Below are positions 35,525 through 38,774 of a DNA stretch of 64,000 nt, one piece after another. Location: positions 248,001 to 312,000 of the forward strand of contig NZ_AOLN01000001.1 of NCBI RefSeq assembly GCF_000337815.1. Reading direction: 5' to 3'. The stretch's first letter is position 1. Every line of letters begins with the position of its first letter. Both the position numbers and the translations under genes were made by a program. A model generated the notes under the pieces. That model saw only the letters and a list, made by a program, of their open reading frames with translations. It did no database searches and had not been told where the DNA came from. Source of the DNA: Haloferax mucosum ATCC BAA-1512. Lineage in GTDB: Archaea > Halobacteriota > Halobacteria > Halobacteriales > Haloferacaceae.

Positions 35525-35660
35525 GTCGTGGTAACTATCATTTTTCGGAGTAAATATAGGTGGGTGTGGGATGGCCGCTGGCGCTGGGGTCACCGTCGAA
35601 CCGCTCGTCGCAGTCGCGTCGCAAGCGAATCTTTTTGCGCCGCCCGCGCCGCCACTCGAT

Positions 35661-36578
35661 ATGGTCTCTGAGATTTTTGACCCCGACCGCTGGGAACCGG
35701 TCGATGGTTCCGAGGCGTTCGACGACATCACCTACCACCGCGCCGTCGATGTTCCGGCAGTTCGAATCGCTTTCGACCGCCCGGACGTTCGAAACGCCTT
35801 CCGACCGGGGACGGTTGACGAACTCTATGCGGCGCTCGACGACGCCAGAAAGCGGGCCGACGTGGGCTGTGTTCTTCTGACCGGCAACGGTCCCTCGGAG
35901 AAAGACGGCGGCTGGGCGTTCTGTTCCGGCGGCGACCAGTCGGTTCGCGGCGGCTCTGGCTACGAGTACCGCGACGACGACGAAGCGGACGTGTCCGACG
36001 ACCCGCTCGTCCGCGAGGCGAAAGCCGGTCGCCTGCACATTCTCGAAGTCCAGCGACTCATCCGATTCATGCCGAAACCCGTCGTCGCCGTGGTGCCGGG
36101 GTGGGCCGTCGGCGGCGGCCACTCCCTGCACGTCGTCTGCGACATGACACTCGCATCGGCGGAGCACGCGAAGTTCCTCCAGACCGACCCCGACGTGGCC
36201 TCCTTCGACGGCGGCTTCGGCTCGGCCTACCTCGCTAAACAGGTCGGTCAGAAGAAGGCCCGCGAAGTGTTCTTCATGGGCAAGACGTACTCCGCCGAGG
36301 AAGCCGTAGACATGGGGATGGCGAACGAGGCGATTCCGCACGAGGAGCTAGAGGACGTCGCACTGGAGTGGGCCGACGAGATGACGAAGAAGTCGCCGAC
36401 GGCGATGCGGATGCTCAAGTACGCCTTCAACATGACCGATGACGGCATGGTCGGCCAGCAAGTGTTCGCCGGCGAAGCGACCCGACTCGCTTACATGACC
36501 GAGGAGGCACAGGAAGGCCGCGACGCGTTCCTCGAAAAGCGCGAGCCACGATTCCGCGACTATCCGTGGCACTACTGA
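35661..36578 (+). CDS. menB: 1,4-dihydroxy-2-naphthoyl-CoA synthase
   Basis: 305 aa crotonase-fold enzyme closing the naphthalene ring from o-succinylbenzoyl-CoA. Motifs: FCSGGDQSVRGGSGYEY, oxyanion hole VPGWAVGGGHSLHVVCDMTL, and MenB-specific QTDPDVASFDGGFGSAYLAK plus the C-terminal YPWHY end. ATG at 35661 chosen: family similarity starts at MVSEIFDP, and TCTTTTTGC at 35627-35635 is a plausible TATA box 27-33 bp ahead; the longer frame from 35571 adds a low-complexity stretch. Confidence 0.95.
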   Translation: MVSEIFDPDRWEPVDGSEAFDDITYHRAVDVPAVRIAFDRPDVRNAFRPGTVDELYAALDDARKRADVGCVLLTGNGPSEKDGGWAFCSGGDQSVRGGSGYEYRDDDEADVSDDPLVREAKAGRLHILEVQRLIRFMPKPVVAVVPGWAVGGGHSLHVVCDMTLASAEHAKFLQTDPDVASFDGGFGSAYLAKQVGQKKAREVFFMGKTYSAEEAVDMGMANEAIPHEELEDVALEWADEMTKKSPTAMRMLKYAFNMTDDGMVGQQVFAGEATRLAYMTEEAQEGRDAFLEKREPRFRDYPWHY

Positions 36579-36602: not shown

Positions 36603-36618
36603 TTTAGGCTGACCAAAG
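36603..36618 (+). promoter_or_regulatory. Upstream copy of DtxR-like operator
   Basis: TTTAGGctgaCCAAAG: same layout as the perfect palindrome 36 bp downstream, with one mismatch in the right arm. It lies just upstream of the probable TATA box (ATTAGAAAAC, 36619-36628). Confidence 0.6.
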
Positions 36619-36638
36619 ATTAGAAAACGACTTATGTG

Positions 36639-36654
36639 TTTAGGTGGGCCTAAA
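36639..36654 (+). promoter_or_regulatory. Perfect DtxR-like operator at the transcription start of the iron-binding protein gene
   Basis: TTTAGG-TGGG-CCTAAA, a perfect 6-bp inverted repeat with a 4-bp centre, three bases before the ATG at 36658. Sites of TTAGG...CCTAA shape are used by DtxR/IdeR/SirR-type metal-dependent repressors (established for the family). Binding here would cover the transcription start and block initiation when iron or manganese is plentiful (inference). Confidence 0.7.
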
Positions 36655-36657
36655 ACT

Positions 36658-37872
36658 ATGGACAAACGTTCATCGGGGCGGAAAACACTGACACGGCGCA
36701 ACTGTATGCGATATGGCGGGGCGGTCATCGGCGCTGGCTTGCTCGCCGGCTGTACGTCCGATTCCTCGGGAAGCGACGACGCGACCGAGACGGCCACGAC
36801 GACAGAGACAGAGACAGAGACGGACACGACGACGACCGCGGAGGCGGACGAGTCGTACACCGTGACGATGGCACCGGCAGGCGAGGTCACTTTCGAATCG
36901 GTTCCCGAGTCGTGGGTCGCCTACGACGGCGGCTACGCCGACATGGGCGTCGCACTCGGCGTCGGCGACAGGATGACCGGTATCGGCGGTGCAGGCCGAT
37001 ATTACAGCTACGTCTACGACGAACTCCCGGGCGTGAGCATCGACCGCGAGCAAATCGAGCAGAACCAACTCTCGGACGGCGACATGTCCAAGGAGATGTT
37101 CTACGAGCTGGACAACGATGTGCATCTGATGGACCCCGAGATGCTCGTCAACTGGTTCGGGTGGAAACAGGAGGACGTTGACGAGATTTCCAAGAACGTC
37201 GCTCCGTTCGTAGGCAACCTCAACTTCCGCCGCGAAGACGAGTGGCACGACTACCGGTACTACACGCTCTACGAGGCCTTCGAAAAGATGGCCGAAGTCT
37301 TCCAAGAACGAGAGCGGTACGAGGCGTTCAAGGAACTTCACGACGAGTTCATCGCCGACATCCAGACGAAACTCCCGCCGGCCGACGAGCGCCCTAACGT
37401 CCTTCTCGTCTACGCGGGAAGCGACCAACCCGAAGCGTTCTCGCCGTACCGCCTCAACGACAAGGGAACGAGCAAGAAACAGTGGCACGACCTCGGCGTC
37501 AGCGACGCGCTCGCCGGAACCGGCGTGAAAGGCCTGAGCACCACGGACCGCGGAAAAATCGACTACGAGACCATGCTCGAAATCGACCCCGACGTGATTC
37601 TCCTGCGCGCTCACGAACGCAAGTCGGCGACCGAGTTCCGCGACACCGTCCTCGACTTCATGCAGTCGCATCCGGTTGCGAGCGAACTCACCGCGGTCCA
37701 AAACGAGCGCGTCTACCGCGGTGGCTACCTCTATCAGGGACCGATTCAGAACCTGTTCTTGACCGAGCGCGGCGCACAGCAACTTTTCCCCGGCGTGTTC
37801 GGCGAAGTGACCGGCGACACCGAACTGTTCGACAGACAGCGGGTCGCAGACATCGTCACCGGGTCCTCCTGA
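36658..37872 (+). CDS. Iron(III)-chelate ABC transporter substrate-binding lipoprotein
   Basis: 404 aa. Twin-arginine-like leader (RKTLTRRNCMRYGG) with lipobox GLLAGC, then a Thr/Glu linker and a type III periplasmic-binding fold: YTVTMAPAGEVTFESVPESW, DMGVALGVGDRMTGIG, a long inter-lobe helix (LYEAFEKMAEVFQERERYEA), LLVYAGSDQPEAFSPYRLND and IDYETMLEIDPDVILLRAHE. The family binds siderophore- or heme-type iron. No permease or ATPase gene is adjacent. Behind twin DtxR-like operators, so probably iron-regulated; co-transcribed with the FAD protein 2 bp downstream. Confidence 0.88.
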   Translation: MDKRSSGRKTLTRRNCMRYGGAVIGAGLLAGCTSDSSGSDDATETATTTETETETDTTTTAEADESYTVTMAPAGEVTFESVPESWVAYDGGYADMGVALGVGDRMTGIGGAGRYYSYVYDELPGVSIDREQIEQNQLSDGDMSKEMFYELDNDVHLMDPEMLVNWFGWKQEDVDEISKNVAPFVGNLNFRREDEWHDYRYYTLYEAFEKMAEVFQERERYEAFKELHDEFIADIQTKLPPADERPNVLLVYAGSDQPEAFSPYRLNDKGTSKKQWHDLGVSDALAGTGVKGLSTTDRGKIDYETMLEIDPDVILLRAHERKSATEFRDTVLDFMQSHPVASELTAVQNERVYRGGYLYQGPIQNLFLTERGAQQLFPGVFGEVTGDTELFDRQRVADIVTGSS

Positions 37873-37874
37873 GA

Positions 37875-38774
37875 ATGACTGCAAACGAGAACCAGTCCAC
37901 GGCGGACGAGTACGACTACGACGTAGTCATCGTCGGCGGCGGTCCCGCGGGTTGTTCGGCGGGTGTGTTCACCGGCCGGTACGGTCTCGATACGGTCATC
38001 TTCGACCGCGGCCGCTCCTCGCTTCGACGGTGTGCGTACCTCGAAAACTACCTCGGGTTCCCGGCGGGAATCGACATCGACACGCTCTATGAGTTGATGC
38101 ACGACCACGCCGAAGAAGCCGGGTGCGAAATCGTCCCCGACCTCGTCGAAGCAGTCAGGCAGGCCGAGACGGGATATACCGTCACGACGCAGGAAGGCCG
38201 GACCGTCACCGCCGGACAGGTCGTCGCGGCGGCCAGATACGGCGGTGACTTCCTCAAACCGCTCGGCGACGACGAGATGTTCATCCAGTACGAGTACGAG
38301 GGTGAAGAACGCGAGCGATTCAACCGCGACTACCCCGGCGAAGACGGAGCCACGCCGTTCGACGGTCTGTACGTCGCGGCACCGGTGACCGGCATCAACG
38401 CGCAGGCGATTATCTCCGCCGGTCACGGCGCGCGAGTCGCTCGAACCGTCATCGCCGACTACCGCCACACACAGGGCTACCCCGAGGAAATCGCGGACCA
38501 CTGGGACTGGATGCGGCGCGAAGCGGAACTCGAAGGTGACCGCGACGACTGGCGCGAGTGGTTCGACGAGCGTGTCCCCGACGACGTTGCCCTCGACGAC
38601 GGCGAACGCCGCGACCTCCGCGAGGCCGCCATCGACCGGCGACTCTCGACGTATCTCTCCGAAGCGGACGTCGAAGCGCGAACCGAACGCGGCCACGAAC
38701 GACTCGCCGAACACCTCGATATCGACGCCAGAACCGACTCCGACGGGGCATCCGACTCCGATTCAGACGACTGA
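37875..38774 (+). CDS. Compact FAD-dependent oxidoreductase (thioredoxin reductase-like, NAD(P)H domain absent)
   Basis: 299 aa. Residues 15-115 carry the FAD Rossmann start DVVIVGGGPAGCSAGVFTGR and FDRGRSSLRRCAYLENYLGF; then VVAAARYGGDFLKPLG, and the C-terminal FAD motif FDGLYVAAPVTGINAQAIIS near 155-175. The segment between is only about 35 residues, so the NAD(P)H-binding domain and CxxC centre of thioredoxin reductase are missing. Residues 190-299 are a charged helical tail ending in Asp/Ser repeats. With the iron-binding lipoprotein 2 bp upstream, a ferric-chelate reductase or release role is inferred. Confidence 0.8.
   Translation: MTANENQSTADEYDYDVVIVGGGPAGCSAGVFTGRYGLDTVIFDRGRSSLRRCAYLENYLGFPAGIDIDTLYELMHDHAEEAGCEIVPDLVEAVRQAETGYTVTTQEGRTVTAGQVVAAARYGGDFLKPLGDDEMFIQYEYEGEERERFNRDYPGEDGATPFDGLYVAAPVTGINAQAIISAGHGARVARTVIADYRHTQGYPEEIADHWDWMRREAELEGDRDDWREWFDERVPDDVALDDGERRDLREAAIDRRLSTYLSEADVEARTERGHERLAEHLDIDARTDSDGASDSDSDD

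Follow-up and report, generated by a model that had tools for sequence, protein, structure and literature searches.

How is an iron-uptake gene controlled when it lies inside a menaquinone (men) gene cluster? The window, a stretch of 64,000 nucleotides of Haloferax mucosum ATCC BAA-1512 (contig NZ_AOLN01000001.1, positions 248,001 to 312,000, forward strand), raises this question at a substrate-binding protein (SBP) gene that a preliminary description of the sequence had assigned to such a setting. The genes concerned are:

35571 to 36578, plus strand: menB-like gene, directly upstream of the SBP gene (PF00378; HVO_1465 is menB)
36658 to 37872, plus strand: siderophore/iron-type SBP, 404 amino acids (PF01497, E = 2.7e-22)
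37869 to 38774, plus strand: thioredoxin-reductase-like flavoprotein, its open reading frame overlapping the SBP stop codon
38932 to 39879, plus strand: menA-like UbiA prenyltransferase, downstream (PF01040; HVO_1462 is menA)

The SBP has a twin-arginine and a lipobox-like N-terminus by eye, its closest named relatives (Haloferax larsenii and H. elongans) are 80 to 82% identical to it, and it has no match above cut-off in NCBIfam. Passages of PMC8305020 give the H. volcanii genes as menB HVO_1465, menA HVO_1462, menC HVO_1461, menD HVO_1469, and menF HVO_1470. The window has the same gene order, and HVO_1464 therefore occupies the place of the SBP; this position, the PF01497 match, and the men-gene flanks together bear out the assignment of an iron-type SBP inside the menaquinone cluster. 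In the parts of PMC11349517 that concern it, HVO_1464 belongs to a set of 11 fhuD paralogues and is 8.0-fold up in iron starvation, other fhuD paralogues rise as well, and a ferR signal is said to precede all fhu genes or operons. The flavoprotein, of which only the N-terminal 120 residues resemble thioredoxin reductases, probably belongs to the SBP operon and may, at a guess, be a ferri-siderophore reductase partner. In several named loci that lack men genes (L094, L095, L102, L103, L106, L108, L111, and L112), a relative of it is encoded no more than about 4 kb from the SBP. The SBP-flavoprotein pair stands inside the men cluster in only 8 of 30 named loci, from seven Haloferax and Halogeometricum limi, and has the appearance of a lineage-specific insertion there.

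Two palindromes of the type TTTAGG-N4-CCTAAA fill most of the 79-bp gap between the end of the menB-like gene at 36578 and the start of the SBP gene at 36658, and a core promoter lies between them:

36603 to 36618, no strand: upstream operator (site 1), TTTAGGCTGACCAAAG, with core TTAGGCTGACCAAA at 36604 to 36617
36621 to 36626, plus strand: BRE, TAGAAA, by matrix match (family consensus TCGRAR)
36630 to 36635, plus strand: TATA element, ACTTAT, by matrix match (family consensus TTWTAT)
36639 to 36654, no strand: downstream operator (site 2), perfect TTTAGGTGGGCCTAAA, core 10/10

Site 1 departs from the 16-mer at two positions and from the 14-bp core at one (9/10 core positions), the latter at core position 12, a variant common among upstream partners. 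The two sites start 36 bp apart, and three bases (36655 to 36657) separate site 2 from the ATG at 36658; the twin sites, their distance, and their placement before the gene all stand as first described. So does their identity as DtxR-type operators, inasmuch as both match in sequence the DtxR/IdeR single-dimer consensus TTAGGNNNNCCTAA (10/10 for site 2, 9/10 for site 1), a 14-bp core that, in the pertinent text of PMC8464063, can be bound by one IdeR dimer. With up to two mismatches allowed, the window holds two matches against 0.31 expected, a number reached by 2 of 100 shuffles, and has no match beyond sites 1 and 2. We therefore no longer count the men genes themselves as regulon members, and only readthrough could link them to the operators.

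The spacer between the operators follows a consensus of TCGRAR, three variable bases, and TTWTAT in the 67 pairs at 36 bp that we oriented by the downstream start codon, and sections of PMC4983044 describe haloarchaeal BRE and TATA motifs as CGAAA and TTWT. The window spacer scores 14.1 with the matrix, a value reached by 0.15% of 2000 shuffles, the window itself being among the 63 training spacers. The string ATTAGAAAAC, earlier taken as the TATA box, is present at 36619 to 36628 but constitutes the BRE region; that assignment is dropped, as the matrix match puts the TATA element at 36630 to 36635. Counting from the ATG as +1, TTAT occupies -26 to -23 and two adenines lie at -34/-33, positions expected of archaeal promoters according to portions of PMC4158304. 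On the same numbering, site 1 covers approximately -55 to -40 and site 2 approximately -19 to -4. Of the earlier proposal that one site lies upstream of TBP/TFB and the other on the transcription start, the first half holds, with the sites bracketing BRE and TATA, but the second does not, as site 2 lies between TATA and the start. The core of site 1 ends 3 bp from the BRE, and that of site 2 begins 4 bp after the TATA element. Among the 36-bp pairs, the distance from the downstream core to the start codon is mostly 4 to 5 bp. Leaderless transcripts make up 72% of the protein-coding transcripts of H. volcanii in the figures seen in PMC4983044, and the SBP gene is probably leaderless too, starting at the likely ATG at 36658.

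Counts within this 3.37-Mb genome separate the exact motif from its imperfect forms. The exact core TTAGGN4CCTAA occurs 27 times genome-wide against once for the reversed control, whereas with one mismatch allowed there are 44 matches against 54 for the control. Since the one-mismatch motif is no commoner than its control, an isolated imperfect site such as that at 36603 means nothing alone; site 1 is credible because a perfect site lies 36 bp away and because its mismatch is of a kind common in upstream partners. Seven of the nine neighboring site pairs less than 60 bp apart in the genome sit at exactly 36 bp (the window pair, C1:118477/118513, C12:27755/27791, C18:147764/147800, C19:21973/22009, C20:8118/8154, and C20:16756/16792); the other two are spaced at 37 bp (C4:231246/231283) and 31 bp (C12:27513/27544). 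In the regions examined, with open reading frames of at least 100 codons, 14 exact sites lie 3 to 8 bp before start codons, many of them of Tat-type SBPs, and the predicted recurrence at other iron-uptake promoters is thereby borne out. Genome-wide enrichment and placement at iron-uptake promoters together mark a haloarchaeal FerR/TroR-type regulon, and the motif has both. Half of these 14 sites are paired with an upstream core matching at least 8/10 (six at 36 bp, one at 37 bp) and half are unpaired, so pairing is not needed for a functional site.

Genes adjoining sites elsewhere in the genome encode further SBPs, a class-III aminotransferase, a lipoprotein with DUF5059/plastocyanin domains, an RraA-like protein, and a polysaccharide deacetylase, and in one case a DUF7260 gene followed by a DtxR-like gene. 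At C20:16756-16805 (L128) a perfect pair spaced at 36 bp stands before an SBP-like open reading frame of only 153 codons, possibly a broken SBP gene that retains its operators. At C12:27513-27804 (L123) two pairs with spacings of 31 and 36 bp lie 242 bp apart, with a NifU-like gene on one side and, on the other, an operon with DUF7260 and a divergent DtxR-like gene, a layout in which one DtxR gene is possibly controlled by another.

The arrangement recurs in relatives. Two exact cores with a gap of 4 to 34 bp were found in 105 of 170 family genomes (reversed control, 0 in all), and a gap of 35 to 65 bp in 12 of 167, several of these being triples; in a class-wide draw, 159 of 242 genomes had a pair (reversed control, 0). 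Among the matches listed, the spacing is 36 bp in 62 of 75 pairs within the family (34 in 8, 35 in 3, 27 in 2) and in 36 of 75 from other families (34 in 13, 35 in 7, 37 in 5, and 20 to 43 in the remaining 14), counts that cover pairs from 33 and 46 genomes, respectively, and in which orthologous promoters recur, so that the pairs should not be taken as independent. When loci were retrieved solely by homology to the SBP, an upstream partner matching at least 8/10 accompanied 44 of the 46 start-proximal exact sites, a total of 44 or 43 depending on the duplicate rule and thresholds, and one to which shared promoter ancestry contributes. The distance in those 44 is 36 bp in 40, 35 in 3, and 34 in 1, with 0 by background at other distances.

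Conservation is closest where the gene order is shared. The SBP gene directly follows menB, as in the window, in 8 of 30 named relatives' loci, and all 8 have a partner at exactly 36 bp matching at least 9/10. The volcanii-type relatives (Haloferax sp. Q22, marisrubri, denitrificans, massiliensis, and sulfurifontis) carry the two operators with the same 36-bp spacing, and CCGAA occurs in the upstream one. The site check took in 26 of the 30 named SBP loci, of which 5 lack a core matching at least 9/10 close to the matched start, 1 has a site without a partner, and 1 has a partner at 34 bp; L096, L097, L100, and L103, outside the check, have pairs at 35, 35, 36, and 36 bp. A second class of exact pairs, 20 to 21 bp apart and placed before a small gene, occurs in other haloarchaeal families (L135, L139, and L134), and the one product tested was DUF7552. 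The recurrence of the 36-bp, promoter-flanking layout at many iron genes of relatives suggests that it may be a standard two-sided switch.

Our reading, to which we give a probability of roughly 0.72, is that the 52-bp stretch is an iron-repressed, double-operator promoter with a candidate DtxR-family repressor on both sides. Sequence architecture, recurrence, and conservation form its basis here, and the DtxR consensus and the iron response of the counterpart HVO_1464 come from the literature; what we infer is which kind of regulator acts, that both sites are occupied, that repression comes from either side, and where transcription starts. Under sufficient iron, a metal-loaded DtxR-family dimer would sit on each TTAGGN4CCTAA palindrome, where the dimer at site 2, directly after TATA, would obstruct RNA polymerase and the start region, and the dimer at site 1, directly before the BRE, would hinder TFB. 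As iron falls, the dimers would leave, and the SBP and flavoprotein genes would be transcribed, probably without a leader. The closest archaeal precedent is MDR1 of Archaeoglobus fulgidus, which the accessible text of PMC2995911 and PMC4158304 describes as a metal-dependent repressor that blocks polymerase recruitment from a site downstream of BRE/TATA; site 2 likewise lies directly downstream of TATA, the mark of MDR1-type repression. The H. mucosum promoter goes beyond MDR1, as far as those accounts extend, in that a further site precedes the BRE at a fixed distance, and because site 1 adjoins the BRE, it is uncertain whether TBP and TFB would bind here, with polymerase excluded, in the MDR1 manner. 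Given that MDR1 blocks polymerase and that the core of site 1 ends so near the BRE, we favor occlusion from two sides, with site 2 primary.

What fixes the spacing bears on the first alternative, in which the two dimers form a cooperative unit, touching across the promoter, and the 36-bp spacing serves their contact. In 58 of 63 pairs at 36 bp, gaps of 3 bp and 4 bp separate the core promoter from site 1 and site 2, respectively. At spacings of 34 and 35 bp it is the upstream gap that becomes shorter, the downstream gap remaining at 4 in 10 of 15 and 7 of 10 pairs, respectively, and at 37 bp the downstream gap is 5 in 5 of 5. This gap analysis took its orientation from the better matrix score and used 30 of the 36 listed pairs at 34, 35, and 37 bp; six 34-bp pairs were left out, namely G047, G057, G058, and G221 (near-duplicates by eye), G193, and G231. 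Because spacing changes track the gaps to BRE and TATA, each operator appears to be placed relative to the core promoter, usually with the upstream operator 1 to 3 bp before the BRE and the downstream one 4 to 5 bp after TATA. We dropped strict helical phasing between the operators as the cause of the spacing on the same observation. The sharp 36-bp peak is what a cooperative unit would produce, as is a weaker upstream site filled with help from the downstream one; however, the spacings of 34, 35, and 37 bp show that dimer-dimer contact is not required, and 36 bp amounts to about 3.4 turns at 10.5 bp per turn, which would leave the dimers on nearly opposite faces of straight DNA. We consider cooperativity unlikely, though it is the strongest of the alternatives.

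The inequality of the operators bears on the next. A single logo, approximately TTTAGGCNNGCCTAAA, is common to both operators in 81 pairs, which suggests one binding protein. Where a pair is unequal, the worse match is upstream in 5 of 5 cases in this genome and in 21 of 22 in the SBP-homologue loci. The best reading of these matches is that the downstream site would be primary and the upstream site weaker and auxiliary. We dropped the idea that the upstream operator serves a divergent promoter, as menB reads in the same direction, with 24 bases between its end and site 1. The operators might instead have opposite roles, the downstream one repressing and the upstream one recruiting TBP or TFB in another metal state or through a DtxR paralogue. 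Archaeal sites upstream of BRE/TATA often activate and those downstream repress, in the passages of PMC4158304 at hand, and TrmB, TrmBL1, and Tgr are described there with palindromes either upstream of BRE/TATA or at the start, the side deciding between activation and repression; here, in contrast, the same motif stands on both sides of one promoter. The lesser constraint on the upstream operator and the presence of several DtxR proteins in the genome also speak for opposite roles. Against them stand the shared logo, the 3 bp between site 1 and the BRE, at which a dimer would be expected to hinder TFB, and the many proximal sites that work without a partner, as far as is known. This division of labor is distinctly doubtful.

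Still more speculative, and improbable to our minds, is a double lock, in which two DtxR-type dimers flanking BRE/TATA would hold TBP and TFB on a bent, partly unwound promoter. TBP-induced unwinding amounts to about a third of a turn. Dimers that are out of phase on straight DNA would thereby come roughly into phase, and repression might then trap a poised preinitiation complex. If that were true, iron genes of Halobacteria would as a standard hold such a complex trapped rather than excluded.

Candidate regulators are at hand on either side of the Pfam cut-offs: three DtxR proteins lie above them, L046 (232 amino acids, FeoA), L048 (230 amino acids, FeoA), and L047 (150 amino acids), and a fourth DtxR-like protein, in L050, lies just below, its divergent gene downstream of the 36-bp pair C12:27755/27791. 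In the loci examined, L046, L047, and L048 showed no related site. The TroR motif reportedly lies about 100 nt upstream of start codons, which differs from the layout here and counts against our reading of the promoter. H. volcanii has Idr, SirR, and TroR, as stated in part of PMC11349517. Solved relatives of L046 include IdeR, DtxR, and manganese regulators such as MntR, and it is conceivable on that account, the DtxR family including MntR-type manganese sensors, that the regulator mainly answers to manganese or another metal rather than iron. We judge this very improbable, however, as iron starvation raises HVO_1464 and other fhuD paralogues (PMC11349517, in the portions cited above) and the targets are siderophore-type SBPs. 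That the palindromes are chance occurrences without a regulatory role is next to impossible: the one-mismatch count stays within its control, but the excess of exact cores, the fixed spacing of partners in unselected SBP-homologue loci, and the conservation in eight named promoters of the same gene order lead us to drop it.

Already known, or very likely so, are the motif, the regulon, and the iron response. The FerR/DtxR regulon of Halobacteria (Leyn and Rodionov 2015, as cited in PMC11349517) likewise has fhu genes preceded by a DtxR-family signal, and HVO_1464, the counterpart of the window SBP, is in the iron-starvation set in the relevant extracts of PMC11349517. IdeR/DtxR of Actinobacteria has, in the corresponding part of PMC8464063, the identical 14-bp consensus per dimer. 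Bacterial IdeR/DtxR usually places two dimers on one overlapping 19-bp site, on opposite DNA faces, whereas here two separate sites flank the core promoter. In the excerpts covered of the open-licence literature we found no description of a rigid, promoter-framed pair of DtxR operators around an archaeal TATA.

An operator pair that follows the promoter and is common across Halobacteria offers a test case for how bacterial-type repressors meet the eukaryote-like start machinery of Archaea. For finding iron-regulated genes, the exact pair is also more specific as a search pattern than the single motif, since the reversed control gave none in 170 and 242 genomes. For H. mucosum itself, the prediction is that the iron-uptake gene inside the menaquinone cluster has a switch of its own.
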